DNA of 64,000 bases, from the NCBI RefSeq assembly GCF_013409785.1, contig NZ_JACCBV010000001.1, positions 1,364,001 to 1,428,000 on the forward strand, read 5' to 3'. Below are positions 36,039 to 52,031 of the stretch, piece after piece. How positions within the stretch are numbered: position 1 is the stretch's first letter; each line of letters starts with the position of its first letter. Source of the DNA: Microbacterium immunditiarum (GTDB lineage Bacteria; Actinomycetota; Actinomycetes; Actinomycetales; Microbacteriaceae). The translations under genes and the position numbers were made by a program. Under the pieces are notes generated by a model that was not told where the DNA came from, did no database searches, and saw nothing but the letters and a program-made list of their open reading frames with translations.

Positions 36039-36073
36039 CGCAGCATCCGTTTCTGTGACCGCGGATGCATCGC

Positions 36074-36147: not shown

Positions 36148-36149
36148 CA

Positions 36150-36183
36150 GATCGAAGGCCCGCCTATTGGCGGGCCTTCGATC
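36150..36183. terminator. Terminator after tRNA-Met
   Basis: A perfect 15-bp stem (GATCGAAGGCCCGCC/GGCGGGCCTTCGATC) with a TATT loop, three bases after the tRNA. Confidence 0.85.
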
Positions 36184-36439: not shown

Positions 36440-36443
36440 ATTT
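36419..36443. promoter_or_regulatory. AT-rich palindrome upstream of fused acyl-CoA dehydrogenase
   Basis: AAATATGT (36419-36426) and ACATATTT (36436-36443), with TGTAA/TTACA nested inside, form an imperfect palindrome 55 bases before the ATG at 36498. It is a plausible operator of a TetR- or GntR-type regulator. The lower G+C contrasts with its surroundings. Confidence 0.5.
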
Positions 36444-36497
36444 GATCGACGCTGGCGCCGCGCCTCCGTCGTCGAAGTTTCGAGAAGAGGACTGCGT

Positions 36498-38579
36498 ATG
36501 GGGACGTTCATGTTCGACGACGGGCCGATCAGTCTTCGCCACGAGTTGCGCGCGCTCATGGAGGAGAAGCTGCCTCCCGAGTGGCTTGGTCCCTTCACCG
36601 CCGATCCCGAGGACAAGGCGATGAGCGACGCATTCTGTCGTGAGCTCGCGGCGCGTGGACTCCTTGTGCCGGAGTGGCCCGCGGAGTTCGGCGGGAGTGA
36701 CATGACGTTGGACCGCGGACTCGTCATTCGCGAGGAGATGTGGTCCCACTCCGAGCCGCGCGGTGGTCAGTACTACGGCCCGAACTGGATCGGCCCGGCG
36801 ATCATGGAGTTCGGTACCGACGAGCAGAGGGCGCTCCACCTATCGCCCATCGCAAGGGGCGCGGTGGTGTGGTGCCAGGGGTTCAGTGAGCCGGACGCTG
36901 GTTCCGATCTCGCCGCGATGCGCACGCGAGCGGAACCCGATGGCGACGGATTCCGCATCACGGGTCAAAAGGTGTGGACCTCGTGGGCGGGCTGGGCTGA
37001 ATGGTGCTTCCTGCTCGCGAAAGTACCGACTGAGTCCGACGACGCGCGTGCGGGCGTCACCGTCTTCCTCATCCCGATGAACCGCAAGGGCATCGAGGTC
37101 CGCCCCATCGACGGACTGCCTGGTCCGCATCATCTCAACGAGGTGTTCTTCGATGGCGTTCGCGCCGAGCGCTCCGAGGTCCTCGGCCGCGTCGCCGGTG
37201 GGTGGGATGTGGTTCGCGCGGCACTCTCCCACGAGCGAGTCGGCATCGCCCGCTACGCGCGGTCGGACAGGATGCTCTCACGCGTCGCCTCGCACGTCGC
37301 GGTCGACCGGCCCAGTACCCTGCGATCCGACTGGATGCGGGCGCGCATCCTGAACCGCGTCTCGCGGCTCGTCTGTCGCCGGACTCTCGCTGCCCAGGCG
37401 GAGTCCGGCTCCCTCGAATTCGAGGCGAACGCCGCCCGCCTCATCACGGTTCGAGCCGATCAGTTCGCTGCTGATGTGACCTCGGATGCTCTCGGGGCGG
37501 CCTTCTTCGAAGATAGGTCGACCGCTGGCGCGCCCTTCGGTGGTGCGGTCGAGTTCTTCTGGAGATACTCACAAGGGGCGACGATCGCGAGCGGCACGAC
37601 GGAGATGCTGCAGCTGAGACTGGTCAGCGAGCTGAAGAAGGGTCGTCGGCTGTCCGCGGCGGAAGAAGTCGCCGACGTGGGCGAAGCCGTGACGAACCTC
37701 ATCGGCGGCGTCGACCGGCTGCCGGCGCTCCGGCGCGCCGTTGACGACCCCTCCAGTCGCCAGGCGCTGCGTGACGCGATGACGGAGATGATCAGCGGTC
37801 TCGATCCACGCGATGGGCTGGACAGCGCGGAGCAGGCCGCCGAAGTCGCGCGCCGCTGCGGGATGGCAGCAGCCCCGCTGCCGATCGAGGCCATGCTCCT
37901 CGCACGAGACGGCGTTCCCGTGGCGTGGGCCGGTCCGGGAGGCGTTCTCGAGCACGCAGATCTCTACGATCGTTGGCTTCTCGTCGGCGAGGAGCCTCTG
38001 CACGCGATCTATCGCGCCGCGCCGCTGGGAACGCGCACAGGCGCCTTCGTCGTCCCCGAGCCTGATGAGCTCACGCACGCGCCGGCACCCGGCCCTGCCG
38101 ATGCGCCACTCGCCTTGGCTCTTCAGTCGGGCTACATCCTGGGTGCCCTGGAGACGAGCCTCGACTTGGCGACCCGCTACGCGTGCGAGCGGGTGCAGTT
38201 CGGTGCTCCGATCATCACGCGGCAGGCGGTCGGTTTTCGGCTTGCCGACGTCGTCGCCGAGCTCTACGGGATTCAGAGTCTTCTCCACTACACGCTGTGG
38301 CGAATCGACCGGGCGCCCCACAAGGCGCTTTCCGACGCGCTCGCGCTGCGCTGGTATGCGGTCGACCTCGCGCGCCGAAGCCTGCGCGTCGCACATCAGG
38401 CCCTCGGCGCCATCGGGCTCACCTACGAGCATGACCATGCGATGATCACCGCCGCACTCCAGCCTCGGCTGCGCTTGCCCTTCTCGGTGGGCCACACACT
38501 CGACCGGGTTGTCGACGCTGTGCGAGTCGTCGGATTCGCCTCGCTCTTCCCGCCCGACGGTGAGCCGCACGCAGGGTGA
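36498..38579 (+). CDS. Fused two-domain acyl-CoA dehydrogenase
   Basis: A 693-residue protein, about twice the family length of a single acyl-CoA dehydrogenase. The N-half (1-375) has the full fold: WCQGFSEPDAGSDLAAMRTR, GQKVWTSWAGWAEWCFLLAK and IASGTTEMLQLRLVSELKKG (the FAD/quaternary-contact motif). The C-half (375-690) is a second dehydrogenase with ATRYACERVQFGAPIITRQA. This looks like a fusion of the two subunits of alpha2beta2 FadE pairs, such as those that act on steroid side chains and rings in actinobacteria. No other catabolic genes adjoin it. It follows a tRNA pair and a gene remnant, which suggests an acquired segment. Ribosome site GAAGAGG. Confidence 0.85.
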   Translation: MGTFMFDDGPISLRHELRALMEEKLPPEWLGPFTADPEDKAMSDAFCRELAARGLLVPEWPAEFGGSDMTLDRGLVIREEMWSHSEPRGGQYYGPNWIGPAIMEFGTDEQRALHLSPIARGAVVWCQGFSEPDAGSDLAAMRTRAEPDGDGFRITGQKVWTSWAGWAEWCFLLAKVPTESDDARAGVTVFLIPMNRKGIEVRPIDGLPGPHHLNEVFFDGVRAERSEVLGRVAGGWDVVRAALSHERVGIARYARSDRMLSRVASHVAVDRPSTLRSDWMRARILNRVSRLVCRRTLAAQAESGSLEFEANAARLITVRADQFAADVTSDALGAAFFEDRSTAGAPFGGAVEFFWRYSQGATIASGTTEMLQLRLVSELKKGRRLSAAEEVADVGEAVTNLIGGVDRLPALRRAVDDPSSRQALRDAMTEMISGLDPRDGLDSAEQAAEVARRCGMAAAPLPIEAMLLARDGVPVAWAGPGGVLEHADLYDRWLLVGEEPLHAIYRAAPLGTRTGAFVVPEPDELTHAPAPGPADAPLALALQSGYILGALETSLDLATRYACERVQFGAPIITRQAVGFRLADVVAELYGIQSLLHYTLWRIDRAPHKALSDALALRWYAVDLARRSLRVAHQALGAIGLTYEHDHAMITAALQPRLRLPFSVGHTLDRVVDAVRVVGFASLFPPDGEPHAG

Positions 38580-38628
38580 CTGTGTCCGGCGCGGCGCCAA
38601 CGGAACAGAAAGTGTTCATCCCTTGCGG

Positions 38629-38800
38629 TCAGCCTCCGAACTCGGCGTGAAGAATGACGGGCGTGTGGTTGGCACTGCCCGCCCGCGAGATCTCGCCCGC
38701 CGCCTCTTGGAAGGCGGGGCGCCATAGTCGCTCCGACGGCTCGTTCAGGATCGCGGACCACGCCTTCCAGCGTCAGGAAGGAATTCGCGAGGTCCGACAT
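38629..38800 (-). pseudogene. Frameshifted small ORF, function unknown
   Basis: On the minus strand an ATG at 38800 opens MSDLANSFLTLEG. A one-base shift in the following ~10 bases then gives AWSAILNEPSERLWRPAFQE and ends HTPVILHAEFGG before TGA (38629-38631). The 172-base length is one over a multiple of three. The joined text reads like a coherent ~57-residue helical protein. It may be a broken gene, or a sequencing error in an intact small one. The remainder of the 38580-38853 gap shows nothing else that I can support. Confidence 0.35.
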
Positions 38801-38853
38801 CGCGGTCGCAGTGTCGCTCGACGGATGTCGGCCGGTTGTGGAAAGGTGCTCCC

Positions 38854-39498
38854 ATGCCCTCGAAGCGCCGCTCCCGCGCGGCATCCGCTTGCCCCCTGAT
38901 CACCGTCGCGGCACTGGCGACTGTCTCGCTCGTCGGATGCGCGACGAACGCACCGGGGGCGGATGCCGCGGACCCGGGCGCGATCGCCGAGCGCGCGAAC
39001 GTCGTCGGCATCGCACCCGACCTCGTGTACACGACAGAGGTCGACGGATACGAACTGCAGGCGCAGTCGGTGGGTCCCAGCGCCGGTGCCGGCATCTCGG
39101 GGACGTGGTTCAACTACAGCACCGGCACCATGCTGACGATCCGCACTGATCGCGGCGAGTACACCGCCGCGGCGTGCGAAGCGACGCCGCTGTGGGACGC
39201 GTCCGACCTCGCCGTGACGTGCACCGAGGAGGAAGACGGCATCTGGCATCGCCAGGGCGGCGCCATCCATGAGTACGTCGCCGTTCGCGACGAGGCGCTG
39301 ATCCTCGTGACGGGCATGCACAACGCTCCGCGCGACGATCTGCGGACCGCCGCGAGAGCCGTCCATGTGCCATCGGAGGCCGAGCTCCAACTCCTCTTCT
39401 CCGACCTTCCCACCGAAGCTCCGCAACCGGTCGAGCGTGGCGACCTCCCCGAGAACGGGGACGGAGCGCCCGTCGACCCTGTCGGACCGGGCGGGTGA
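38854..39498 (+). CDS. Lipoprotein of unknown function
   Basis: A 214-residue exported protein. The signal peptide ends in a lipobox, SLVGC, near residue 27. The mature domain has two cysteines (AACEAT and VTCTEEE) and several aromatic beta-strand-like segments, with a Pro/Glu/Asp-rich tail. No family recognised. ATG 38854 follows GAAAGG by 7 bases. Its stop overlaps the next gene's GTG by four bases. Confidence 0.75.
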   Translation: MPSKRRSRAASACPLITVAALATVSLVGCATNAPGADAADPGAIAERANVVGIAPDLVYTTEVDGYELQAQSVGPSAGAGISGTWFNYSTGTMLTIRTDRGEYTAAACEATPLWDASDLAVTCTEEEDGIWHRQGGAIHEYVAVRDEALILVTGMHNAPRDDLRTAARAVHVPSEAELQLLFSDLPTEAPQPVERGDLPENGDGAPVDPVGPGG

Positions 39499-40178
39499 GT
39501 CAGAGAGATACTTGTGGAGTGGACGACTGCTGTGCTCCACGCGGGATCGACGGATACGAGCGCGAGTTCGACGACCGGTTCGCGCACCGGCTGGCGCGGG
39601 ATTATCGCCGGAACGGTGCGCCGGCCGCCGCTCGACGCATCGTGGAGGTCGCGACATCGACGGGGTTGGACGGCGCATCCGTTCTCGAGATCGGCGGCGG
39701 AATCGGCGACATCCAGCTCGAACTGCTTCGACACGGAGCGGCCCACGCGACGAACCTCGAGCTGTCCGGCGCGTACGAGTCGGAAGCGCTGCGGCTGCTC
39801 GACGAGGCGGGGATGCGTGGGCGCGCGACCCGCAGCGTCGGGATCGACATCGCCGCCACGCCCGAAGCGGTCGAAACTTCCGACGTCGTCGTCCTGCATC
39901 GGGTGGTGTGCTGCTACCCGGACTACCGCCGCCTGCTCGACGCGGCCGCACAGCATGCTCGCCGGGCGGTCGTCTTCAGCCACCCACCGCGCACGTTCGT
40001 CACGATGGCCGGCGTGGGACTGCTGAACCTGCTGTACAGGCTGAGGCGCCACCCCTATCGCGCGTTCGTGCATCCACCGGATGCGATGATCGGCGTCCTC
40101 GAACGACACGGGTTCGAACCGCTTTACCGCGATCGCGAGGGCACGTGGTGCATCGTCGGTGCCGTCAGGAGCTTGTGA
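39495..40178 (+). CDS. Class I SAM-dependent methyltransferase
   Basis: A 227-residue enzyme. ASVLEIGGGIGDIQLELL is the SAM-binding motif I, and SDVVVLHRVVCCYPDYRRL is the post-II/IV region. The N-terminus has Cys residues (CGVDDCC). A hydrophobic stretch (VGLLNLLYRL) before a C-terminal RHGFEPLYRDREG fits methyltransferases acting on lipophilic substrates. GTG 39495 overlaps the lipoprotein stop. The substrate is unknown. Confidence 0.83.
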   Translation: MSQRDTCGVDDCCAPRGIDGYEREFDDRFAHRLARDYRRNGAPAAARRIVEVATSTGLDGASVLEIGGGIGDIQLELLRHGAAHATNLELSGAYESEALRLLDEAGMRGRATRSVGIDIAATPEAVETSDVVVLHRVVCCYPDYRRLLDAAAQHARRAVVFSHPPRTFVTMAGVGLLNLLYRLRRHPYRAFVHPPDAMIGVLERHGFEPLYRDREGTWCIVGAVRSL

Positions 40179-40236
40179 AGCAGACCACGTGACGTTGGTC
40201 CTGCCCGGCGGCGGTCGAGCAGCGCATCATCGTGAC

Positions 40237-40716
40237 ATGACCAGGATCGAGAACCAGGAGCCCGGCATCGTCCAGCTTCAGCAGCAGCAGTGCGCCGTCC
40301 TGCACGAGCGAGTGCCCATGGCAAGCCTCACCGAGTTCTTCTCCCGCGCGTTCCACCTCACGATGGCCGCCGCTCAGAAGCAGGGCAGGCAGATCATCGG
40401 ACCGCCGCTCGCGATCTACTTCGGCACGCCCACCGACGTCGTCGATGTCGCGGCCGGCTTCCCGGTCGACGCCGCGATCGAGGAAGACGGAACGGTGACA
40501 CCGCAGGCGCTTCCGGCCGGCCGGGCGGTCGAGGTGCTGCATCAGGGCGCGTACGACGAACTCGGAACCACCTACGAGCGATTGACGGCGTGGATGCGCG
40601 ACTCGGAGCTGACGCCCGGAGAGGTGATGTGGGAGTCCTACCTGAACGAGCCCGACCCCAATCACCCCGAATCGGCGAGGACGCTCGTGACCTGGCCGAT
40701 CGCAGACTCTCGCTGA
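40237..40716 (+). CDS. GyrI-like small-molecule-binding protein
   Basis: A 159-residue stand-alone GyrI/AraC-effector-type domain. QQCAVLHERVPMASLTEFF, FGTPTDVVDVAAGFPVDA and LPAGRAVEVLHQGAYDELGT are the family's beta-alpha-beta blocks; the Tyr and final E in VMWESYLNEPD line the ligand pocket. Members bind toxic small molecules. No HTH is attached. Confidence 0.85.
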   Translation: MTRIENQEPGIVQLQQQQCAVLHERVPMASLTEFFSRAFHLTMAAAQKQGRQIIGPPLAIYFGTPTDVVDVAAGFPVDAAIEEDGTVTPQALPAGRAVEVLHQGAYDELGTTYERLTAWMRDSELTPGEVMWESYLNEPDPNHPESARTLVTWPIADSR

Positions 40717-40752
40717 GCAGCGTCTCTACCCGAGCGCGGATCTCGAAGTTCG

Positions 40753-41160
40753 TCACCGCGCCGGCTGGACCGCCGGCGAACGCCGGAAAACCAGCACCGT
40801 CGTGATCGCGAGGATCACGATGCCGATCGACTCGACGATGACGGTCTCGGGCACGAGCGTGAAGTCCCACGTCTCGGTGATGCCGAACAGCCCGACGGTG
40901 AGCGCCAGAAGCAGCGAGCCGAGCGTCGCGATGAGGAACAGCAGGCTCAGCACGGTCGCGATCTGCAGCAGGCGCCCCTTCAAGAAGATCATCCCGAGGG
41001 CGAGCACGAGGGCCGCGACCGCGTTCAGAACGAAGAACACGCCCAGGATGCCGCCGACGCCGTCGAACACCAGATAGAGGTGGATGCCGCCCGCCACAAG
41101 GAGGGCGATCGCGCTGAGGATGCGCATGACCCAGAGCACGCGCTCGCCGCTTCCGTTCAT
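40753..41160 (-). CDS. Small four-helix membrane protein
   Basis: A 135-residue membrane protein with four predicted helices (about residues 8-30, 36-58, 65-88 and 107-126). Helix one carries GGIHLYLVFDG, and two charged ends face the cytosol. No characterised family recognised. It lies downstream of the CDP-alcohol phosphatidyltransferase gene on the same strand. A short dyad GCGAA-N3-TTCGC (41178-41190) precedes its start. Confidence 0.7.
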   Translation of the reverse strand: MNGSGERVLWVMRILSAIALLVAGGIHLYLVFDGVGGILGVFFVLNAVAALVLALGMIFLKGRLLQIATVLSLLFLIATLGSLLLALTVGLFGITETWDFTLVPETVIVESIGIVILAITTVLVFRRSPAVQPAR

Positions 41161-41210
41161 GTTCGACCCTTCCTTTTGCGAAACGTTCGCTTCGAGTGAA
41201 TGTTGGCGGT

Positions 41211-41963
41211 TCAGGCCTCTTCTGTCGAGGCCTCTTCAGTAGACACGAGCCGGATGCCCGAGCGGTTCACTCGCGACAGGTGGGTCCGCGTGAGCCACGT
41301 GACGTCTCGCGCGAAGGACTCCACGAGGAGGGCGAGCGCCGCGAGCGCGACGCCCATCGCGACGACCTCGGGAAACAGGCGGCTCGCCACGACCGTGAGG
41401 GCGACGCCGCAGATCGCCGCGACCGCCTTGCGCCAGTACCGCGGCGGCAGGGGAGTGCGCATCCACGCCAGCACGAGCCCCGCCGCGACGAACGCGTACC
41501 TCATGAGCCCGAAGGCGAGCACCCACCACCCGACGATGGGGCCGCAGTACACGCTCAGGACGAGCAGCAGGAACGCGTCGACCTCCATGTCGAACTGCGC
41601 GCCGAGCTCGCTCTCGCTCGACGTGCGACGGGCGACGTAGCCGTCGACGCCGTCCAGGGCGAGCGCGATCGCCGAGAGCGACACGAGGAGTGGCGTCGAG
41701 ACGCTCTCGGTGAACGACGAGACGACGATCGCGGTGATGAGCCCGACGAGCACGGACCGGGTCGCGGTCACGATGTTCGCCTGTCCGAAGCGCGCAGCGC
41801 CACGGCGGCGGAGGCCCAGCGCGAGCAGAAGGGACGACACCACGAGGTACGCGATCCCGGCCGCCACGCCGATCAGAGACAGCGGGCTGAGCGCCGAGAC
41901 GCCGGCGAGAGCGGCGAACCCTACCACCGCGAACCACCACGGCACCCACTGAACGATTCCCAT
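41211..41963 (-). CDS. CDP-alcohol phosphatidyltransferase family protein
   Basis: A 250-residue membrane enzyme. [20 protein letters not shown] followed by FDMEVDA is the catalytic signature D-G-x2-A-R-x8-G-x3-D-x3-D that transfers a phosphatidyl (or other phospho-) group from a CDP-alcohol. Six to seven helices surround it. The C-terminus ends in a repeated TEEASTEEA. It is divergent from the MDR/PTPS/GT operon with 20 bases between starts, so it may act in the same pathway. The alcohol acceptor is unknown. Confidence 0.87.
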
Positions 41964-41983
41964 GTGCTCTCCGTGTAGATTTC

Positions 41984-43015
41984 ATGGCGGTCACCATGGA
42001 TACGACGAACGTACCCGCCGCGGTTCACGCGGATGCCACAGACGCGGCCATCGCATGGTGGATCGTGGCCCCGGGCGAGGGCGAACACCGCCCCGAGCCG
42101 CTGCCGCCCCGCGGCGACGGCGACGCCCTCGTGCGCACCCTCTGGACCGGCATCAGCCGCGGAACCGAGAGCGTCGTCGCGCGGGGCGAAGTGCCCGAGA
42201 GCGAGTCGGAGCGCATGCGCGCGCCGTTCCAATCCGGCGACTTCCCGTTCCCCGTCAAGTACGGCTACCTCAACGTCGGAGTCGTCGAAGAGGGGCCCGG
42301 CGAACTGCTCGGCCGCACGGTCTTCTCGCTCTTCCCGCACCAGTCGCGCTTCGTCGTCCCCGCGGATGCGCTCACCCCGGTGCCCGACGACGTCCCCGCG
42401 CGCCGCGCGGTGCTCGCGGGAGCGGTCGAGACCGCCGTCAACATCCTGTGGGACGCCCAGCCGCACCTTGGCGACCGCGTCATCGTCGTCGGGGCGGGAA
42501 TGATCGGATGCGCCGTGGCCGTGCTCGCGCGCCGCATCCCCGGCGTCGAGGTGACGATCGTCGACGTCGACCCCGCGAAGTCCGCCGTCGCCGCTTCCCT
42601 CGGGGTGGCGTTCGCCACCCCGGCCGACGACCTCCCGCCCGCGGACGTCGTGATCGAGGCGAGCGGCAACGGCGCAGGGCTGCAGCACGCGCTTCGCGCG
42701 GCGGTCACCGACGGGCTCATCGTCGTGGCGAGCTGGTACGGCAGCCGCCCGGTGCCGCTCGACCTCGGCGCCGACTTCCACTCGCGGCGGCTCACGATAC
42801 GGTCCAGTCAGGTGGGAGCGGTCGCCGCGAGCAGACGGTCGCGACGATCGACTCAGGACCGCGTGGCGCTCGCGCTCCGCCTGCTCGCCGACCCGGCGTT
42901 CGACGCCCTCCTCACAGGCAGCTCGCCGTGGACCGAGCTGCCGCGACTCACCGCGAACCTCGCCGAGGGCACCGCCGGTGCCCTGTGCCACACGATCGAT
43001 TGGAGCGAGGCATGA
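41984..43015 (+). CDS. MDR-family dehydrogenase
   Basis: A 343-residue medium-chain dehydrogenase/reductase. The Rossmann motif [20 protein letters not shown] is followed by [18 protein letters not shown]. The N-terminal domain has [14 protein letters not shown] in place of the usual zinc-binding Cys, and no structural-zinc Cys cluster is visible, so zinc dependence is doubtful. It is the first gene of a six-gene operon with 4-base overlaps. A second in-frame ATG lies at 41996. It may reduce or oxidise a side chain or sugar of the operon's product. Confidence 0.85.
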
Positions 43016-43410
43016 CCTTCAGCCTCACCGTCCGCGACCACATCATGATCGCCCACAGCCTGCGCGGCGAGGTGTTCGGCCCCGCGCAGCAGCTGCACGG
43101 CGCGACCTTCCTGGTCGATGCGACCTTCCGGTCGGCCGACGTGGACGAGAACGGCATCGTCGTCGACATCGGCCGCGCGAGCGAGGCGCTGCGCGACATC
43201 GTCGGCGAGCTGACGTACCGCAACCTCGACGAGGTGCCCGAGCTCGCGGGCGTGAACACGACGACGGAGCGCCTGTGCCAGATCATCGGCGACCGGCTCG
43301 CCGAGCACGCGCGGGGCGGCGATCTGGGAGGAGCGCCGCTCACGGGCATCACGGTGACGCTGCACGAGTCCCACGTGGCCTGGGCCTCGTACGAGGTGGA
43401 GCTGTCGTGA
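43012..43410 (+). CDS. 6-pyruvoyl-tetrahydropterin synthase-like protein
   Basis: A 132-residue PTPS/QueD-fold protein. Features include IMIAHSLRG (His15), [52 protein letters not shown] and [11 protein letters not shown]. The usual HGH zinc pair is only half present: His29 is kept, but the second position is Ala31, and the active-site Cys before it is replaced by Gln. Either the zinc site uses other ligands or the enzyme has a changed reaction. It overlaps both neighbours by 4 bases. Confidence 0.87.
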
Positions 43411-44420
43411 CCCCACCGCCCGTCGTGTGGTTCGTCGTCCCGAAGGGCATCGACGATCCGGCTCGGGTGAGCGGCGGCAACGTGTACGATCGCGAGGTGC
43501 GCGACGGGCTCCCCGGCCGCGGCTGGACGGTGTCGGTCGTCGAGTGCGCGGACGGGGCGGGCGTGGCATCCGCTCTCCGTTCCGCTCCCGACGCGACACT
43601 CGTGCTGATCGACGGGCTCGCGGCCGGCTGGGCGGCCGCCGAGGTCGAGGCTGCCGCGACGAGGCTGCGGATCGTGGTGCTCGCGCACATGCTGGTCGCC
43701 GCGTTCCCCGACGCGACCGAGCCGGCGATCGAGGCGGAGAGACGGATGCTGCGCCACGCGCACCGCGTGATCGTGACGGGTCGCTGGACCGGCGAGGAGG
43801 TGGCGCGACGAGGCCTCGCCGACGTCGATCGCATCACCGTGGCCGCGCCCGGCGCACGCGCCGAGAGCACCGCCCAGCCGGAGCACGACGCGGATCTCCT
43901 GTGCGTCGGCGTCATCGCCCCGCACAAGGGGCAGGACCTCCTGCTCGACGCCCTCGACCGGGTCCCGACGAAGGACTGGAGGTGCACGATCGCCGGCTCT
44001 ACCGACTCGTATCGCGAGTTCGCCGCGCGCGTCGTGCAGCGCGCGGCGGCGTTCGACGGCCGCGTGCACCTCCCCGGCGTGCTCGTCGGCGAAGCCCTCG
44101 CCGACGCCTACCGTCGCAGCGCGCTCCTCGTGGCGCCGTCGCGCGTCGAGAGCGCGGGCATGGCGATCGCGGATGCGCGCGCCCGCGGCCTGCCGGTCGT
44201 GGGCACCGCCGTCGGCGGCATCCCCGACACAGTTGTGGGCGGCGGCGCGCTCCTCGTCCTCCCCGACGACCCCGACGCGCTCGCGAACGCGCTCACGTCC
44301 TGGATGACCGACCCCGCGCTCCGCACGCGCCTGCGCGCAGAAGCGCTCCGCGCGCGCGAGCACCTGCCGACGTGGGACGACACCGTCTCCACGATCGCCG
44401 ACGTCTTGGAGGCCGCATGA
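43407..44420 (+). CDS. Glycosyltransferase family 4 protein
   Basis: A 337-residue GT-B glycosyltransferase. GGNVYDREV near the N-terminus, [20 protein letters not shown] and the donor-binding [20 protein letters not shown] followed by GGIPD match GT4. It has no transmembrane helix. Starting at a GTG that overlaps the PTPS-like stop and ending in an ATGA overlap, it is certainly in this operon. It would attach a sugar to the pathway product; donor and acceptor are unknown. Confidence 0.87.
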
Positions 44421-45280
44421 CCTCGATCTCGGTCGCGGCCCCCGACTGGCTCGCGCAGCGGGCGATCGCCGACGACGCGTCGCGCTCCGTCGAACTCGCT
44501 GAGGAGCTGGCGCGGATGCTCCCGCCCGGCCCCCTCGTCGTGCACGACCTCGGTGCGGGCACCGGCGCCATGACGCGCTGGCTCGCGCCGCGCCTGGGCG
44601 GACCGCAGCGGTGGGTGCTGCGCGACGGCGACGAGGGCATCCTCCATCACGTCGACCTCGCGGCGACGGTCGACGCCGAGGGGCGACCCGTCGTCGCGGA
44701 GGCCACCGTCGAGGATCTGACCTCCCTTCCGCCGGACGCATTCCACGGGGCGTCGGCGGTCACGGCATCCGCCCTGCTCGATGTGATCACGGCCGAAGAG
44801 GCCGCGCACATCGTCGCGGCGTGCGTCGACGCCCGGACGCCCGCACTGTTCAGCCTCACCGTGACGGGGGCGGTCCGCATGGGGCCGTCCGACGCGGGAA
44901 CGATCGCACTCGAGAGCGAGATCGCGGCCGCGTTCAACGACCATCAGCGTCGCGAGACGGCCGGTCGCCGGCTCCTGGGGCCGGATGCCGTGTCTCTCGT
45001 CGCCACCGGGTTCGAAGCCGCCGGCTGGAGCGTGCGGCGCGCGCCGACCCCGTGGCGGCTCGCGGCGACGGACGGCCCGCTCATCGCCCAATGGCTCGAC
45101 GGGTGGTTGCGCGCGGCGGTCGAGGAACGGTCCGATCTCGCCCGTCCCGCCGACGAGCTGCGCCGCACGCGTCTCGCGCAGAACGCCCTCTGCCGGCTGC
45201 GGGTCACCGTCTCGCACGAGGACCTTCTCGCGTGGCCGCCGCAACCCCCTGGGACCGGGAGTGCGTCCGGGGGAGGATAG
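44417..45280 (+). CDS. Class I SAM-dependent methyltransferase
   Basis: A 287-residue methyltransferase. LVVHDLGAGTGAMTRWLA is SAM motif I; ASAVTASALLDVITAEEA holds motif IV, and LFSLTVTGAVRM is motif V. It overlaps the GT gene by four bases and precedes the RibD-like reductase by four. Probably methylates the pterin-like or sugar intermediate; this is inferred from the operon. Confidence 0.83.
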   Translation: MTSISVAAPDWLAQRAIADDASRSVELAEELARMLPPGPLVVHDLGAGTGAMTRWLAPRLGGPQRWVLRDGDEGILHHVDLAATVDAEGRPVVAEATVEDLTSLPPDAFHGASAVTASALLDVITAEEAAHIVAACVDARTPALFSLTVTGAVRMGPSDAGTIALESEIAAAFNDHQRRETAGRRLLGPDAVSLVATGFEAAGWSVRRAPTPWRLAATDGPLIAQWLDGWLRAAVEERSDLARPADELRRTRLAQNALCRLRVTVSHEDLLAWPPQPPGTGSASGGG

Positions 45281-45284
45281 CGAC

Positions 45285-46037
45285 ATGAGCGAGCGACCAT
45301 ACGTCACCCTCAGCTGCGCGATGTCGATCGACGGATGCCTCGACAGCACCGCGCCGCAGCGGCTCGCGATGTCGAACACGTCGGACCTCGACCGCGTCGA
45401 CGAGGTCCGCGCGCAGAACGACGCCATCATGGTCGGCGCCTCGACCGTGCGTCGCGACAATCCGCGCCTGCTCGTCCGCGATCCCGACCGGCGCGCGCGC
45501 CGGGTCGCGGAGGGCAAGCCGTGGTCGCCCGCGAAGGTCACCGTGACGTCGACCGGCGACCTTCCGCCGGACGCCCACTTCTTCACGACGGGCGAGTCGC
45601 CCCGCTTCGTCTACTGCCCGGGCGGCATGGCGCACTCCCTGCGCGACCTGCTCGGCGAGCGCGCCACGGTCGTGGGCGTCGGTGAGCAGGTCACCATGGC
45701 CGCCGTGCTCGAAGACCTCGCGAGCGAGCAGGGCGTCCGCAGCCTCATGGTCGAGGGCGGGGGCACCGTGCTCACGCAGTTCCTCGAGGAGGATCTCGCC
45801 GACGAGCTGCACCTCGTGATCGCCCCCTTCTTCGTCGGAGAGCCGCGCGCTCCGCGCGCCTTCGGCGCCGGCTCCTTCCCGTGGACCGCGTCGCGCCGCG
45901 CCCGTCTCGCCGGGAGCGCGCAGATCGGCGACGTCGTGCTGCTGCGGTACGCGCTGTCGGACCGTGTCGGCATGCTCGACGGCGAGCGGTCGCTGCCCGA
46001 GGCCGGGTGGAGGCCCGTTCCCTACCGCGTGCCATGA
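45285..46037 (+). CDS. RibD C-terminal/dihydrofolate reductase-like reductase
   Basis: A 250-residue protein of the pyrimidine reductase fold, as in the C-terminal half of RibD. YVTLSCAMSIDGCLDS, NDAIMVGASTVRRDNPRLL and SLMVEGGGTVLTQFLEEDL are the NADPH/substrate-binding blocks. No deaminase half is present. It would reduce a pteridine- or aminopyrimidine-like substrate with NADPH. It overlaps the sulfatase-like gene by four bases. Confidence 0.88.
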   Translation: MSERPYVTLSCAMSIDGCLDSTAPQRLAMSNTSDLDRVDEVRAQNDAIMVGASTVRRDNPRLLVRDPDRRARRVAEGKPWSPAKVTVTSTGDLPPDAHFFTTGESPRFVYCPGGMAHSLRDLLGERATVVGVGEQVTMAAVLEDLASEQGVRSLMVEGGGTVLTQFLEEDLADELHLVIAPFFVGEPRAPRAFGAGSFPWTASRRARLAGSAQIGDVVLLRYALSDRVGMLDGERSLPEAGWRPVPYRVP

Positions 46038-47677
46038 CCCCGATCCCGCGAGCGGAAGCGGGCGCGCTCGGCACGCGAGGGCGCTTGGGGCTCGGTGTGG
46101 CGATCGCGGCCCTCGTCCTCGTTCCGCTCGCGCCGGGCATCATCGAGCACGGCTCGGCGCTCGGACTCGTGCGCCTGCCGGCCGAATCCGTCGTCACGCT
46201 GCTCGTCCTCGCGCTCATCCCGTGGCGGCCCGCGCGCTGGGTCGTCGCGGGGCTCTTCGGACTGTTCGTCGTCGTCGCGATCGCGCTCGCGGCGATCGAC
46301 AGCGGCTATCGGGCGGCCGTCGGGGCGCGCTTCGTGCTGATCGACTGGCCGCAGCTCGGCGACGCGTACGGCGTGCTCGGCGACTCGATCGGCGAGCTCG
46401 CGGCATCCGCCGTCCTCGCGGCGATCGTCGTCGTGCTCGTCGGCACGGGCGCAGCGCTCGCGTGGGCCGCGATGAAGACGGATGCGGCGCTCCGCGGCCG
46501 TCCGCGCCGAGGACGCACCGCGCTCGCGGCAGTGACGGCCGCGTGGATCGTCGCGGCGCTCGTGGCGCTGCCGTTCGGCGGTGCGGGTCAGGTGGCGGCC
46601 GCGGCATCCGCCGATTCGATCGGATCCGCAGCCGCACGCACCGCGGCGACGCTGCGAGCCCAGGCCGAGCTCGCGCGACGCATCTCGGACGACGACTTCG
46701 CGGAGGTCCCGCCGTCGCGGCTGCTCGCGGCGCTGCGGGGGAAGGACGTCCTCCTCGTGTTCGTCGAGAGCTACGGCAAGGCGGCGCTGCACGGCACCCC
46801 GGTCTCGCGCGGCGTCGTCGAGATGCTGCGCGAGGGCGAGGCGTCGCTCGCGCAGGACGGCTACGCGACTCGGAGCGCGTGGCTCACGTCCCCGACCTTC
46901 GGCGGCGTGAGCTGGCTCGCACACGCGACGCTGCAGAGCGGCCTGTGGATCGACACGCAGGCAGACTACGCCGAAGTGCTGCGTAGCGACCGGCTCACGC
47001 TGAGCGGGGCGTTCCGGCAGGCGGGGTGGCGCACGGTCGGCGTCGTGCCGTCGAACATCCGCGAGTGGGACGAGGGCCGGGAATTCTACGGGTTCGAGGC
47101 GCTCTACGACACGAGGAACCTCGACTATCGGGGTCCGAAGTTCGGGTACGCGCGTGTGCCCGACCAGTACACGCTCAAGCAGTTCGCCGACCGTGAGCTG
47201 GCCGGGGAGCATCAGCCGGTCATGGCCGAGATCGACCTCGTGTCGTCGCACTCGCCGTGGGCGCCGCTGCCGACGCTCGTCGAGTGGGACGAGCTCGGAC
47301 GGGGGTCGATCTTCGACGAGCAGCTCGCCGCGAGCAGGACCGCCGCCGAGGTGTGGGAGAACCCCGCGACCGTGCGCCGGTTCTACGGAGACTCGATCGA
47401 GTACTCGCTCGGGTCGCTGTTCTCGTTCTTCGAGCGCGTCGACGATCCGAATCTCGTGGTCGTCGTGCTCGGCGACCATCAGCCGAACGCGATCGTGAGC
47501 GGCGACGGCGCCGACCACGACGTGCCGATCCACGTGATCGCGAAGGACCCGGCGGTGTTCGAGGCGATCGCCGCGTGGGGGTGGGAAGAGGGGCTGCACC
47601 CGGATGCCACGGCCCCCGTGTGGCGAATGGACGAGTTCCGCGACCGCTTCTTCGAGGCGTTCGGCGCGGAGCGTTGA
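46034..47677 (+). CDS. Sulfatase-fold membrane protein
   Basis: A 547-residue membrane enzyme. Four or five helices (about residues 18-190) are followed by an extracytoplasmic alkaline-phosphatase-superfamily domain. KDVLLVFVESYGKAALHG marks the metal/nucleophile region, EIDLVSSHSPWAPL a second block and VVVVLGDHQPNAIV the metal-binding DHQ. It resembles LTA-synthase-type proteins but with Tyr-Gly-Lys near the nucleophile site. As the last gene of the operon, it may transfer a phospho-alcohol group outside the membrane, in keeping with the divergent CDP-alcohol enzyme. Confidence 0.8.
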   Translation: MTPIPRAEAGALGTRGRLGLGVAIAALVLVPLAPGIIEHGSALGLVRLPAESVVTLLVLALIPWRPARWVVAGLFGLFVVVAIALAAIDSGYRAAVGARFVLIDWPQLGDAYGVLGDSIGELAASAVLAAIVVVLVGTGAALAWAAMKTDAALRGRPRRGRTALAAVTAAWIVAALVALPFGGAGQVAAAASADSIGSAAARTAATLRAQAELARRISDDDFAEVPPSRLLAALRGKDVLLVFVESYGKAALHGTPVSRGVVEMLREGEASLAQDGYATRSAWLTSPTFGGVSWLAHATLQSGLWIDTQADYAEVLRSDRLTLSGAFRQAGWRTVGVVPSNIREWDEGREFYGFEALYDTRNLDYRGPKFGYARVPDQYTLKQFADRELAGEHQPVMAEIDLVSSHSPWAPLPTLVEWDELGRGSIFDEQLAASRTAAEVWENPATVRRFYGDSIEYSLGSLFSFFERVDDPNLVVVVLGDHQPNAIVSGDGADHDVPIHVIAKDPAVFEAIAAWGWEEGLHPDATAPVWRMDEFRDRFFEAFGAER

Positions 47678-47687
47678 TCAGCGTTGA

Positions 47688-48113
47688 TCAGCGCTGCAGG
47701 GCTTCGCTGAGCCAGCGGGCGTACGCGTCCCACGGCGACGCCTCCGCCGAGATCGCGCGCACGTGGTCGAGCAGCTCGTCATCGGCGCGGAACCACTCGC
47801 CGCCCTCGCGCAGATGGGCGAACCGGCGGTGCCGCTCCTGCTCGACGGCACGCCCGCCCCGCTCGAACGCGAGCAGCTCGTCGTGCCAGATCGCGCCGAG
47901 GCGCTGCCGGGGCTGAGACGACGTGCCGATCTTGATGCGGTCGGCGTAGCGGATGTAGTAGACGACGTCGATGCGGGGGAGCGGCAATTCGGCATCCGGC
48001 ACATCGCCCACCCGCCACCCGCACGCCGCGCACGACCAGTGCCCCGCACGGCGCTCGCCGCGGGTCGCGCCGCACAGCACGCACGGACCCGGCATCTCTC
48101 GGCGCATCGCCAT
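47688..48113 (-). CDS. GIY-YIG nuclease-like protein with N-terminal zinc ribbon
   Basis: A 141-residue protein. An N-terminal zinc ribbon (CVLCG ... CAACG) is followed by a GIY-YIG (T5orf172/Mug113) domain: VVYYIRYADRIKIGTSSQP, RQRLGAIWHDELLAFERGG and EQERHRRFAHLREGGEWF. GIY is present as YYI/KIG. It may be a DNA-binding or nuclease protein. The end is just 10 bases after the sulfatase stop, in the opposite direction, near a repeated GTTGATCAGC. Start at ATG 48113. Confidence 0.75.
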   Translation of the reverse strand: MAMRREMPGPCVLCGATRGERRAGHWSCAACGWRVGDVPDAELPLPRIDVVYYIRYADRIKIGTSSQPRQRLGAIWHDELLAFERGGRAVEQERHRRFAHLREGGEWFRADDELLDHVRAISAEASPWDAYARWLSEALQR

Positions 48114-48195
48114 TTCCGAAGGGTACGGCCGGCCTCCGACGCGGGCGCGATACGGTCTCGGGGGGACCGAGGGAGAGCCGCGAGGGAGAACAAGG

Positions 48196-49449
48196 GTGAC
48201 GGCAGCAGGCGCCAACTGGGCGGGCAACCTCACGTACAGCGCGCGCGAGCTCGTCGCTCCGGCGACGGTCGACGAGCTGCGGCGGGTCGTGGCATCCGCC
48301 GCACGGGTCAAGGCGCTCGGCTCGCGTCACTCGTTCAACCGCATCGCCGACACCGACGGCGTGCTCGTCTCGGCCGCCGCGCTCGGTGGGCCCGAGCTCG
48401 ACTCTGGGCGCGCGGTCGTGCGCGCCCCCGCGGGCATGCGCTACGGCGAGCTCGCGCCGTGGTTGCAGGAACGCGGATGGGCGCTCGCGAACCTCGCGTC
48501 GCTGCCCCACATCTCGCTCGCGGGAGCCGTCAGCACGGGGACGCACGGCTCGGGCGACCGCAATCCGTCGCTCGCCGAGGCGGTCGAGGGCGTGGAGTTC
48601 GTCGGCGCCGACGGCGAGGTGCATCGCATTGCGCGGGGTGACGCCGACTTCGGCAGCGCGGTCGTCTCACTGGGGGCGCTCGGCGTGACGACGGCGATCG
48701 AGCTGCGCGTGGAGCCCACGTTCGAGGTGGCGCAGACGGTGTATCCGGATGCCCCGCTCGACCGCGTGCTCGAACGGTATGACTCCGTCACCGGAGCCGC
48801 GTACAGCGTGTCGCTGTTCACGACGTGGCGGGACCCCGACCGCGTGGACCAGATCTGGGTCAAGGAGCGCCTCGACCGGCCGGGGCCGGGCTTGCCCGAG
48901 GGCCTCGGCGTGTCAGCGGCGGGAGGGCCGCTGCATCCGCTCCCCGGTGTGAGCGCCGAGCCGTGCACGACGCAGGGCGGGGTGCCGGGGCCGTGGCTCG
49001 CACGTCTGCCGCATTTCCGCCTCGAGTTCACGCCCTCCAACGGCGACGAGCTGCAGTCGGAGTACCTCGTGCCACGCACCGCCGGAGTCGCGGCGATCGA
49101 GGCGCTGCGCGGACTGGCCGCGCGCATCGCGCCGCTGCTGCAGGTGTGCGAGCTGCGCACGGTCGCCGCCGACACGCAGTGGCTCGCGCCGTCGGGAGGC
49201 CGCGACAGCACGGCACTGCACTTCACGTGGAAGCCCCTGCAGCGCGAGGTCGAGGCGTTCCTGCCCGAGCTGGAGTCGGCCCTCGCGCCCTTCGAGGCGC
49301 GGCCGCACTGGGGCAAGCTCTTCGACACGTCGGGCGTCTCGCGCTTGCCCGGGTTCTATCCGGAATGGGAGCGCTTCGCCGAGCTGCGCGAGCGGCTCGA
49401 CCCGCGCGGGATCTTCGTCAACGGCTTCCTCGAGGCGGTCGGGCTGTAG
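48196..49449 (+). CDS. FAD-linked alditol oxidase
   Basis: A 417-residue flavoprotein of the VAO family, close in length to Streptomyces alditol oxidase. KALGSRHSFNRIAD carries the His that binds FAD covalently in that enzyme. GAVSTGTHGSG and LGALGVTTAIELRVEP are the FAD-binding motifs, and the C-terminal HWGKLFD and PRGIFVNGFL match sugar-alcohol/lactone oxidases. It oxidises polyols to aldoses with O2. GTG 48196 follows GAGGGAGAACAAGG. Confidence 0.88.
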   Translation: MTAAGANWAGNLTYSARELVAPATVDELRRVVASAARVKALGSRHSFNRIADTDGVLVSAAALGGPELDSGRAVVRAPAGMRYGELAPWLQERGWALANLASLPHISLAGAVSTGTHGSGDRNPSLAEAVEGVEFVGADGEVHRIARGDADFGSAVVSLGALGVTTAIELRVEPTFEVAQTVYPDAPLDRVLERYDSVTGAAYSVSLFTTWRDPDRVDQIWVKERLDRPGPGLPEGLGVSAAGGPLHPLPGVSAEPCTTQGGVPGPWLARLPHFRLEFTPSNGDELQSEYLVPRTAGVAAIEALRGLAARIAPLLQVCELRTVAADTQWLAPSGGRDSTALHFTWKPLQREVEAFLPELESALAPFEARPHWGKLFDTSGVSRLPGFYPEWERFAELRERLDPRGIFVNGFLEAVGL

Positions 49450-49461
49450 CCGCAGAGCTGG

Positions 49462-49944
49462 TCAGAGCTTGACGGATGCGTCGAGCAGCAGCCGCACCGC
49501 CTCGGTCACGGTCTGCGACAGGATGTGCTCCGGGTCGCCGTTCAGCCGAAGCGCGCGATGACCGTGGGCGCCGTCCATCGCCCACCCGAGGTAGACGGTT
49601 CCGGCCGGGTGGTCGTCCTGAGGGTCGGGCCCGCCCACGCCCGTCGTGGAGACGGCGACGTCCGCCCTCATCACCCGCAGCGCGCCGGCCGCCAGCTGCT
49701 CGGCGCACTCGCCCGACACCGGGTCGATGCCGGGCTCGACGCCCAGGAGGCGCTCCTTGACGCTCGATTGGTAGGCGACGATCGCTCCGGCGAACCAGTC
49801 CTCGGCCTCCGGCCCCGCCCCGACGGCGCTCGCGACGAGCCCGCTGGTCAACGACTCCGCGACCGCGACCCGCAGGCCGCCCGCCAGCGCGATGTCGGCC
49901 AGCAGAGCGACCCAGTCGATGGCCCCCTGGTCGGACTCGGTCAT
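49462..49944 (-). CDS. CinA family protein (nicotinamide-nucleotide amidohydrolase)
   Basis: A 160-residue stand-alone CinA C-terminal domain (PncC type), which deamidates nicotinamide mononucleotide. VAVAESLTSGLVASAVGAGP, AGAIVAYQSSVKERLLGV and VSTTGVGGPDPQDDHPAGTV are the conserved blocks. ATG 49944 follows GGGAACGAGG. It is convergent with the alditol oxidase. Confidence 0.9.
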   Translation of the reverse strand: MTESDQGAIDWVALLADIALAGGLRVAVAESLTSGLVASAVGAGPEAEDWFAGAIVAYQSSVKERLLGVEPGIDPVSGECAEQLAAGALRVMRADVAVSTTGVGGPDPQDDHPAGTVYLGWAMDGAHGHRALRLNGDPEHILSQTVTEAVRLLLDASVKL

Positions 49945-50136
49945 CCTCGTTCCCGAATCCGCGCCCACCTCACAGTCCTCCATCGTCGAAACGATACGCC
50001 CGACCCGCGATTCGCTCGGGGGCTTGACAACTGCCCATGGACCGGCCCGCGAACGTCCGTGCTCCGCGACCGGGCGGCACCCGCGCCGCATGCTCCACGC
50101 CCCGGCGAGCGCGTGTCAAGCGCCTGGGCCACATTC

Positions 50137-50172
50137 GCGCCGACGCGTAGCTTTGCGAAGCGCCGTCGGCGC
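50137..50172. promoter_or_regulatory. Inverted repeat in leader of SDR gene
   Basis: GCGCCGACG (50137-50145) and CGTCGGCGC (50164-50172) form a perfect 9-bp inverted repeat with an 18-base spacer, 33 bases before the SDR start. It may be a leader hairpin or operator. A consensus-like TTGACA lies at 50024, without a clear -10. Nothing else is seen in this gap. Confidence 0.35.
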
Positions 50173-50204
50173 CTCGGCCGGCGTTCGTCACGAAGGAGAG
50201 AGAA

Positions 50205-51092
50205 ATGACCGATTCCCCGGGCGCGGACCCGCGCCACTCCGAGCACGACGAGGGGTTCGCCCCGCAGGAGCAGGAGCAGCCGGGCACGACCGACGAGACG
50301 CGGCCCACTCCCGATCACGGCGAGGAGTCGTACCGCGGCTCCGATCGGCTGCGCGGGCGCCGAGCCCTCATCACCGGCGGCGACTCGGGCATCGGGCGCG
50401 CGGTCGCGATCGCGTTCGCGCGGGAGGGCGCCGATGTCGCGATCGCGCACATGCCCGAAGAGCAGGAGGACGCCGACGAGACGATCGGCTGGATCGAGAA
50501 GGCCGGATGCCGCGGCCGCAGCCTTGCGGGCGACATCCGCGACGAGGAGTTCGCCACCGGCATCGTCGATCGCACGATCGCGGAGTTCGGCGGCCTCGAC
50601 ATCCTCGTGCTCAACGCCGCGTACCAGAAGGACCGTGAGTCGCTCGACGACCTGTCCACCGAGGAGTTCGACCGCGTCTTCCGCACGAACCTCTACGGTC
50701 TGCTGTGGACGGCCCGCACGGCGGTGCCGCACCTCGAGCCGGGCTCATCGATCATCGTCACGTCGTCGATCCAAGCGTTCAACCCGTCGCCGAACCTCAT
50801 CGACTACGCCATGACGAAGGCGGCGCAGGTCGCGTTCGTGAAGGCGCTCGCGCAGCAGCTCGGGGGGAAGGGCATCCGCGTCAACGCCGTCGCACCGGGA
50901 CCGATCTGGACCCCGCTCATTCCCGCGACGGGCGGCGACCCCGAGTGGATCGAGCAGTTCGGCCAGGACACGCCGCTCGGTCGCGCGGGGCAGCCCGCCG
51001 AGCTCGCGGGCGCCTACGTCTACCTGGCGTCGGATGCCGCGACCTATGTGTCGGGCGCGGTGCTGCCGGTGACGGGCGGGAAGGGGCTGTAG
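50205..51092 (+). CDS. SDR family oxidoreductase
   Basis: A 295-residue short-chain dehydrogenase with a 50-residue acidic, Pro-rich N-terminal extension typical of the stress-related YhdF/YghA group. Cofactor motif ALITGGDSGIGRAVAIA, ILVLNAAYQ, catalytic Ser in IIVTSSIQA, and Tyr/Lys in YAMTKAA are all in place. The strong ribosome site GAAGGAGAG suggests high expression. Confidence 0.88.
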   Translation: MTDSPGADPRHSEHDEGFAPQEQEQPGTTDETRPTPDHGEESYRGSDRLRGRRALITGGDSGIGRAVAIAFAREGADVAIAHMPEEQEDADETIGWIEKAGCRGRSLAGDIRDEEFATGIVDRTIAEFGGLDILVLNAAYQKDRESLDDLSTEEFDRVFRTNLYGLLWTARTAVPHLEPGSSIIVTSSIQAFNPSPNLIDYAMTKAAQVAFVKALAQQLGGKGIRVNAVAPGPIWTPLIPATGGDPEWIEQFGQDTPLGRAGQPAELAGAYVYLASDAATYVSGAVLPVTGGKGL

Positions 51093-51131
51093 AGCCCGTC
51101 GACCCGACCCGCACGGAGTAGGGTTGCCGTC

Positions 51132-52031
51132 ATGGCGACGACCCCACCAGGCTGGTACGACGACGGACACGGCGCACTGCGCTGGTGGGACGGCGCGCGC
51201 TGGACCGAGCATGCGCAGCCTCTTCCGGTGCCGGATGCCGCGGCCGGGGCATCCGAGTCGGCGCAAGCCGCTTCGCCGATCGGCGACAAGCCCGTCGTCG
51301 AGGATGTCGAGGTCGTGGAGTCGCTCGAGCAGCTCGAGGCAGCGACGGCGGCCGCTCCGGCGCAGGAGCAGCCCGTCGCGCCCGCTGGTTACCCGCCGGT
51401 CCCGCCTCCTCCGCCCGGTGCGCAGGGCGCCGCCCCGGTGACGTACCCCGTCGCCGGTGGACCGGGGTACCCGCCTGCCGCTTACCCGGGCGCGCCGGGG
51501 CAGACGGGCGGCTTCATCGCCGCGACCGAGCCGAAGAAGTCGAAGACGTGGATCATCTGGCTCGTCATCGGCATCGTCCTGCTGCTGGCGGTCGCCGCGG
51601 CCGCGGTCATCATCCCCCTGACGCTCATGCTCAGCAGCACCTCTTCGTCGGTCGGACCGTCCGGCGACGACGAGACGGCCGCAGTCGCGACGGTGGAGCT
51701 GTACGACGACGCATGGTCGACGAGCGACTGCGACAAGTTCTTCGCGGCGACCACCGAGTCGTTCCGCGAGAGCATCGAACTGCCGACGTGCGAGGAGTTC
51801 GAGTTCGCGTCCGGTGACTTCGGCGCGTCGGTGCAGAATTACGACATCACCGTCACCGAGATCGAGCACGACGAGGGCTCGATCGTCGTCTCGACGACCG
51901 AGAGCTACGAGAGCCTCATCGACGAGCTCGGCGAGCCGGTCGACGAGCCGATCCCGGTCGAGGACCACTACGTGTACACGCTCGTCGAAAGCGGGTCCGA
52001 CTGGCTCATCGACGGGGCCACGACGGAGTGA
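51132..52031 (+). CDS. DUF2510 membrane-anchored protein
   Basis: A 299-residue protein. The N-terminal DUF2510 motif (PPGWYDDGHGALRWWDGARW) is followed by a Pro/Ala-rich linker, one transmembrane helix (about residues 138-163) and an extracytoplasmic domain with two Cys (SDCDKF, LPTCEEF) that resembles small NTF2-like folds. Function is unknown; such proteins are typical of actinobacterial envelopes. The stop overlaps the next start. Confidence 0.8.
   Translation: MATTPPGWYDDGHGALRWWDGARWTEHAQPLPVPDAAAGASESAQAASPIGDKPVVEDVEVVESLEQLEAATAAAPAQEQPVAPAGYPPVPPPPPGAQGAAPVTYPVAGGPGYPPAAYPGAPGQTGGFIAATEPKKSKTWIIWLVIGIVLLLAVAAAAVIIPLTLMLSSTSSSVGPSGDDETAAVATVELYDDAWSTSDCDKFFAATTESFRESIELPTCEEFEFASGDFGASVQNYDITVTEIEHDEGSIVVSTTESYESLIDELGEPVDEPIPVEDHYVYTLVESGSDWLIDGATTE

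Follow-up and report, generated by a model that had tools for sequence, protein, structure and literature searches.

Seven genes of Microbacterium immunditiarum are described here as a candidate pathway for a GTP-derived compound. They lie at 41211-47677 of the window, which is the whole stretch of 64,000 nucleotides analyzed (contig NZ_JACCBV010000001.1, positions 1,364,001 to 1,428,000), and all positions below are counted from its first letter. There is a strong case that the seven genes form one biosynthetic unit, and a chance neighborhood was rejected on gene-order conservation and co-occurrence. We put a probability of about 0.6 on a single pathway in which GTP would be turned first into a diamino-ribosylamino- and a ribitylamino-pyrimidine and then into a glycosylated, methylated pterin-like compound, which the cell would probably attach to a phospholipid and export. 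The product, what each enzyme acts on, the sequence of steps and the lipid link are what we infer from the genes and their relatives.

The gene unit and its conservation

Six of the genes are on the forward strand and span 41984-47677. They encode a medium-chain dehydrogenase/reductase (MDR) oxidoreductase (41984-43015, 343 amino acids, with an alternative start at 41996), a PTPS-like T-fold protein (43012-43410, 132 amino acids), a family 4 glycosyltransferase (GT4; 43407-44420, 337 amino acids), a class I S-adenosylmethionine-dependent methyltransferase (44417-45280, 287 amino acids), a stand-alone RibD_C reductase (45285-46037, 250 amino acids) and a membrane protein with an LtaS/EptC-type extracellular domain of the alkaline phosphatase superfamily (46034-47677, 547 amino acids), called the LtaS-like protein below. 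The seventh gene, on the reverse strand (41211-41963), encodes a CDP-alcohol phosphotransferase of 250 amino acids and is divergent from the operon. Four-base overlaps join MDR to PTPS, PTPS to GT4, GT4 to methyltransferase and RibD to the LtaS-like gene, and a gap of 4 bases separates methyltransferase and RibD. The original prediction, which was made from the letters of the DNA, had given these gene positions, the tight coupling and a CDP-alcohol gene 20 bases away in divergent orientation; the gaps of -4, -4, -4, +4 and -4 and the intergenic space at 41964-41983, which ends at the MDR start, confirm it on each point. All seven frames are open to the terminal stop, and their G+C content is 0.89-0.96 in third codon positions and 0.44-0.57 in second ones, as in real genes. 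Pfam matches above cut-off were found for CDP-OH_P_transf, ADH_zinc_N (just over), PTPS, Glycos_transf_1 and RibD_C, and in the NCBIfam scan none of the unit's proteins reached a cut-off.

Conservation was counted over the best 80 of at least 454 confirmed candidate loci. Some of the gene absences among these loci are contig ends, and such loci were retained in the counts. MDR, PTPS and GT4 are consecutive and co-oriented in 80/80 loci, so the neighborhood is kept far beyond this one strain. The CDP-alcohol gene is present in 76 loci (immediately divergent from MDR in 71 and co-directional in 4), and the methyltransferase in 73, or 74 by hidden Markov model (HMM). Two further members became visible in the relatives: a flippase-like protein resembling LPG_synthase_TM, present in 77 of the 80 loci (PF03706 in both copies scanned), and GTP cyclohydrolase II (GCH II). 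A GTP cyclohydrolase had already been suggested as a partner worth looking for, and 68 of the 80 loci have a linked GCH II, the other 12 having none in the stretch. RibD was found in 42 loci by tblastn and in 39 by HMM, a creatininase-family gene in 38 and the LtaS-like gene in 30. The tblastn excess consists of three divergent RibD-like copies in three Streptomyces (L050 13403-13912, L076 12654-13181 and L080 13340-13858 (-)), 26-29% identical and directly downstream of the creatininase gene.

Carriers of the cluster include Streptomyces, Micromonospora, Actinoplanes, Nocardioides, Microbacterium and others. The closest PTPS matches are from Microbacterium (the first seven loci, at 76-79% identity), and within this genus the cluster is patchy, present in 7 of 35 genomes with the source strain counted. 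Unlike most relatives, the source strain has no linked GCH II or flippase-like gene, nor does it have a linked creatininase gene, which about half of them carry. In several loci two members share one stop-free frame: the CDP-alcohol enzyme with the LtaS-like protein (L042, L045, L138), GT4 with the flippase-like protein (L042), GT4 with the methyltransferase (L143) and RibD with GCH II (L143).

An altered PTPS-like protein

The PTPS-like protein of the window is the orthologue of Streptomyces coelicolor SCO6650, whose PDB structure 3d7j it matches with an E-value of 4.7e-52. The two are identical at 10 of the 12 sites inspected; at the other two, Thr replaces Asn in one case and Ser in the other. 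At the position which we take to be that of the catalytic Cys, the window protein has Ala25, and Ala is found in 99 of 100 other SCO6650-type sequences (the remaining one is a fragment with a gap). At the presumed Asp-His position it has T68-Y69 and SCO6650 has Asn-Tyr; Asp-His is found in 0 of the 100. Two His of what we take to be the zinc site, H15 and H29, are retained and the third is replaced by Ala31, again in 99 of 100 with one gap. E119, presumably the pterin-binding Glu, is retained in 100/100. A deeper group of relatives, f18, has 19 PTPS sequences, all with this Glu, all three zinc His and Ala for Cys; at the Asp-His place they have His-Tyr (15) or else Asp-Tyr, His-Phe, Asn-Tyr or His-Met. 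Catalytic residues thus seem to be missing in both groups, and a zinc ligand only in the SCO6650 type. SCO6650 itself is said to lack zinc, the triad and PTPS activity.

Because the catalytic residues are lost, neither PTPS nor QueD chemistry is expected from the window protein. Its identity as a queuosine or biopterin PTPS was rejected on the same ground, and it stays below the NCBIfam cut-offs for QueD (43 of 89.25 bits) and 6PTHBS (31 of 125.5 bits). What it might do instead is grip the edge of an aminopyrimidine or pterin through the conserved Glu, guiding a ring closure other than that of PTPS, or a side-chain reaction. A separate PTPS-family gene was observed at L150 and L151 (8998-9369 in both), about 5 kb downstream of GCH II in a riboflavin-type gene run, and these copies retain HGH and Cys in the rows inspected.

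Proposed first steps from GTP

The pathway would begin with GCH II, which would open GTP to 2,5-diamino-6-ribosylamino-4(3H)-pyrimidinone 5'-phosphate (DARoPP). The enzyme is encoded in the cluster of most relatives, and in this strain it would presumably be the riboflavin RibBA: the source genome has a single GCH II, RibBA, with another RibD_C protein beside it at 3.354-3.356 Mb, so the strain may borrow the first step. There are nine RibD_C-family matches in this 3.9-Mb genome, and only one is within a few kb of RibBA.

The stand-alone RibD_C of the window matches its Pfam family at 5.8e-42. Its best NCBIfam match, TIGR01508, is at 128.3 bits, under the cut-off of 186.45, and in the PDB the 5xux group ("Conserved protein") ranks first, followed by 6p8c and 2azn. 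It appears to resemble the archaeal/fungal type of DARoPP reductase best, and for this reason a ribitylaminopyrimidine is the expected intermediate; the protein would reduce the ribosyl chain to ribityl with no deamination.

Two kinds of GCH II accompany the cluster, and they were compared at the position of Tyr105 of the E. coli enzyme. Tyr is found in 31 of 31 copies with no creatininase in the locus, all 31 of which have RibD, and in three riboflavin-type controls added to the alignment (the E. coli protein and two entries of the strain's RibBA). The 37 copies with a creatininase in the locus are all non-Tyr: Met (33), His (3) or Gln (1). Where GCH II lacks this Tyr, a creatininase-family formamidase would complete the opening of GTP. 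As shown in PMC9478397, a creatininase-family formamidase of S. meliloti releases formate from the formylated pyrimidine to give the diamino compound. Two distinct GCH II lineages serve the same cluster type in a tree of 83 sequences, where the non-Tyr group is one side of a single branch (97/88). Repeated independent evolution of non-Tyr GCH II with creatininase was tested on this tree, and only one change was found. As for S. coelicolor, SCO6655 presumably makes a formylated pyrimidine, with the residue at the Tyr105 position deciding; its GCH II paralogues were reportedly studied in a 2006 paper, and SCO6655 is said to be the one with a new activity.

Since RibD_C and GCH II are riboflavin families, some of the genes could instead belong to a redundant branch of riboflavin or folate synthesis, the rest having nothing to do with it. 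A second Streptomyces locus may be read in this direction: L173 (4942-6069 (-) and 6779-7549 (+)), and likewise L174 and L175, has RibD_C with a Tyr-type GCH II, and RibD_C is fused to a deaminase in L173, the only one of these Streptomyces copies scanned with Pfam. The GCH II of L173-L175 joined the Tyr-type lineage of the cluster (100/99, midpoint root). A MarR-family gene sits between RibD_C and GCH II in L174. The gene order and the co-occurrence speak against such a branch, as does the other RibD_C with RibBA elsewhere in the genome, on which a plain riboflavin or folate operon was disfavored. Expression in S. coelicolor also speaks against it: PMC2853524 lists SCO6655, as a GTP cyclohydrolase II, and SCO2687 in a table of genes whose expression opposes the flux predicted for their pathway, here riboflavin metabolism, and the genes in this table are mostly upregulated in stationary phase. 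We consider a riboflavin or folate branch very improbable. A GTP-derived aminopyrimidine or pterin origin of the product is likely, given RibD_C, GCH II and the Glu of the PTPS-like protein.

Oxidoreductase, glycosyltransferase and methyltransferase

The MDR protein matches ADH_zinc_N at 9.1e-8. As bchC it scores 6.7e-13 and misses the TIGR01202 cut-off (48 of 291 bits). At the places where we assume the catalytic zinc ligands of a zinc-dependent MDR alcohol dehydrogenase to be, those ligands were not found: S58, Y95 and L96 stand there, invariant in 24/24 sequences (the window and 23 of 73 length-filtered relatives). The protein is probably a BchC-like oxidoreductase without catalytic zinc ligands, and it would carry out a redox step.

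The methyltransferase is below the Pfam cut-off. It was assigned from its AlphaFold2 model (mean pLDDT 93.7), for which Foldseek returned class I methyltransferases; the matches were varied and indicated no single substrate. GT4 falls short of the cut-off for the mycothiol glycosyltransferase MshA, TIGR03449 (68.9 of 462.5 bits). In a profile search of the PDB it matches the tetrahydrobiopterin glucosyltransferase 5ze7 weakly (5.4e-11), outscored by 25 sequences with the MshA, Tll1590 and PimB types first. Naming GT4 after a known enzyme was rejected, the pterin glucosyltransferase being too far down the list. From their families, GT4 would glycosylate and the methyltransferase would methylate the product, and both modifications are likely.

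The MshA/PimB-like proteins among the best profile matches would also suit decoration of a cell-wall or membrane glycan, in which GT4, the CDP-alcohol enzyme, the flippase-like and the LtaS-like protein build a carrier and the GTP-derived compound is a cap or cofactor. The LtaS-type fold and the frames shared by the CDP-alcohol enzyme and the LtaS-like protein fit this too. However, it is MDR-PTPS-GT4 that vary least among the loci, rather than the membrane genes, and the window set has a single glycosyltransferase, which makes glycan decoration an improbable explanation.

Membrane enzymes and a possible lipid link

The CDP-alcohol enzyme matches PF01066 at 8.9e-15 (55.8 bits, cut-off 22) and has no named equivalog in NCBIfam. 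What we take to be the eight-residue motif of CDP-alcohol phosphotransferases (D104, D107, G108, A111, R112, G121, D125, D129) is invariant in 13/13 aligned sequences, which are the window protein plus 12 out of 34 relatives retained by a length filter. This enzyme would join a polyol to a phospholipid, and in the relatives the flippase-like protein would move the lipid-linked product.

The LtaS-like protein has no Pfam match. Its AlphaFold2 model (mean pLDDT 86.9) has N-terminal helices, and Foldseek placed LtaP best (2.1e-8), along with LtaS, GacH, EptC and MCR. In an alignment of the window with 24 of the 27 relatives listed, E245, H406, D481 and H482 are found in 25/25 and T288 in 23/25 (Ser or Val in two); we assume metal or nucleophile roles for them. 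The model fits an LtaS-type layout, with N-terminal helices and an alkaline-phosphatase-fold domain carrying Glu, Thr and Asp-His. From its likeness to LtaS-type transferases, the protein is predicted to transfer a phospho-head group outside the cell.

Co-occurrence was counted in 394 genomes of the class, evenly drawn, with E-value thresholds for presence of 1e-15 (PTPS), 1e-12 (CDP-alcohol), 1e-30 (LtaS-like) and 1e-40 (RibD). Positive genomes numbered 57, 57, 40 and 96, respectively. PTPS and the CDP-alcohol enzyme occur together in 54 genomes; three have PTPS alone (G408, G591, G669) and three the CDP-alcohol enzyme alone (G390, G533, G559). The G390 assembly is in fragments, and the contig that carries its RibD, LtaS-like and CDP-alcohol genes may stop short of PTPS. 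In one genus (f5/g7) the CDP-alcohol carriers are exactly the 19 PTPS-bearing genomes. The original prediction had counted the CDP-alcohol enzyme with the unit, and its presence in 54 of 57 PTPS genomes bears this out. Linkage alone does not account for the tie, because the two genes are unlinked in G008: they are on different contigs, and over 200 kb separate PTPS from each end of the contig that carries it. They are on separate contigs in G348 as well, but there a contig ends 1.5 kb from PTPS and linkage is possible.

PTPS and the LtaS-like protein occur together in 38 genomes, the LtaS-like protein occurs alone in 2, and 40/40 LtaS-like genomes have the CDP-alcohol enzyme. Among 11 of 19 Streptomyces-like genomes, the LtaS-like gene comes no closer than 3.8-4.8 Mb in seven, is on another contig in one and lies within about 5 kb in three. 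Because of the seven at megabase distance, this co-occurrence is not from linkage alone either.

The constant company of PTPS and the CDP-alcohol enzyme favors a lipid-linked product, and mainly for this reason we give lipid attachment about even odds. The fullest form of the idea is a membrane-anchored glycosylated, methylated pterin or ribitylaminopyrimidine lipid, joined by the CDP-alcohol enzyme and passed outside by the flippase-like and LtaS-like proteins, whose GTP-derived head group might be redox- or light-active; this we hold tentatively, at somewhat less than even odds.

The core enzymes (RibD, MDR, PTPS, GT4, methyltransferase) could instead make a soluble glycosylated pterin or ribitylaminopyrimidine, leaving export, self-protection or a neighboring lipid to the CDP-alcohol, flippase-like and LtaS-like proteins. 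Five f18 loci (L144-L148) have RibD-MDR-PTPS-GT4 by HMM, followed by a methyltransferase of another kind and then by PHP-domain and AlaX-like proteins (by translation, with Pfam on examples from L144 and L147), and G008 has MDR-PTPS-GT4 with no other member within about 9 kb. The cluster HMMs found no linked membrane genes at any of these six loci. The soluble core thus has a wider distribution than the linked membrane module, a reason for caution on the lipid link. Of the 57 PTPS genomes, 19 also lack the LtaS-like protein, and the profile search with GT4 does list pterin glucosyltransferases, though far down. A soluble product is nevertheless rather unlikely, given the tie of PTPS to the CDP-alcohol enzyme even where unlinked and the open frame shared by GT4 and the flippase-like protein in L042.

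Several other observations, together with the missing membrane genes and LtaS-like protein just described, weigh against a single lipid-forming pathway. The Fisher values for co-occurrence ignore relatedness. RibD and PTPS occur together in 46 genomes, while RibD is found without PTPS in 50 of its 96 and is below threshold in 11 of the 57 with PTPS. On the GCH II tree, the association of Tyr with creatininase absence comes down to one change and is not a repeated event, and the L173 RibD_C carries a deaminase. In the source genome no second GCH II was found, nor, by a search without a built-in control, an orthologue of the flippase-like protein, although a weaker PF03706 family member is present elsewhere. 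With these points counted, the single pathway from GTP keeps the probability given at the outset. Of the glycosylated pterin or pterin-linked lipid-like product first proposed, the unit, the GCH II linkage and the CDP-alcohol tie have gained support, and the product itself is still conjecture.

Neighboring features

A small hydrophobic protein of 135 amino acids (40753-41160, reverse strand) is a possible accessory member. It is present in 9 of the 80 loci, adjoins the CDP-alcohol gene in the 7 closest, all Microbacterium, and has no match in Pfam or NCBIfam. Downstream of the operon, Pfam places a gene of the FAD-linked sugar-lactone oxidase family at 47971-49449; it was rejected as a member, as 0 of the 80 related loci have it. 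A search that included the 20-base divergent space found no sigma-70 consensus promoter, a terminator search gave a single terminator-like match at chance level, and at Rfam gathering scores the sole match in 36000-52000 was a tRNA.

Relation to known systems

The nearest known set, which we take as typical of the proposed pathway, is SCO6650-SCO6655 of S. coelicolor, beginning with the orthologous PTPS. The order PTPS, GT4, methyltransferase, flippase-like, creatininase, GCH II in other Streptomyces fits the numbering from SCO6650 to SCO6655. Compared with this set, the window has no linked creatininase, GCH II or flippase-like gene, while its operon includes RibD and the LtaS-like gene. The archaeal/fungal start of riboflavin synthesis (GCH III or GCH II, ArfB/BrbF formamidase, RIB7-type reductase) is predicted to share the first intermediates. 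The window differs from it in the company of its RibD_C, which has no deaminase domain: the PTPS-like protein, GT4, methyltransferase and lipid enzymes. Lumazine synthase was not found among the Pfam families scanned in the unit. Pterin glycosyltransferase systems (5ze7; Chlorobium PGT) share with the proposed pathway a glycosyltransferase acting on a pterin, GT4 having the weak profile likeness to 5ze7 given above; they are not known to have a lipid module. The LtaS/LtaP/GacH and EptC/MCR transferases share fold and metal/nucleophile-type residues with the LtaS-like protein, which is 11-16 percent identical to them by Foldseek and differs in being tied to the CDP-alcohol enzyme, with which it shares a frame in 3 loci.

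No paper naming the pathway or a pterin lipid was found in the open-licence literature. The earlier statement that no named pathway has this gene set holds to that extent, and needs amending in that the PTPS is partly known (SCO6650, 3d7j) and there is earlier work on the GCH II paralogues of S. coelicolor. As far as we found, this would be an orphan pathway of many actinobacteria of which no more than single proteins have been described so far. Since the altered PTPS and the CDP-alcohol enzyme occur almost one to one, a definite claim can be put to the test, namely that a lipid carries a GTP-derived head group. If true, it would explain the extra GCH II copies in S. coelicolor, and the PTPS fold without its catalytic residues would gain a substrate.

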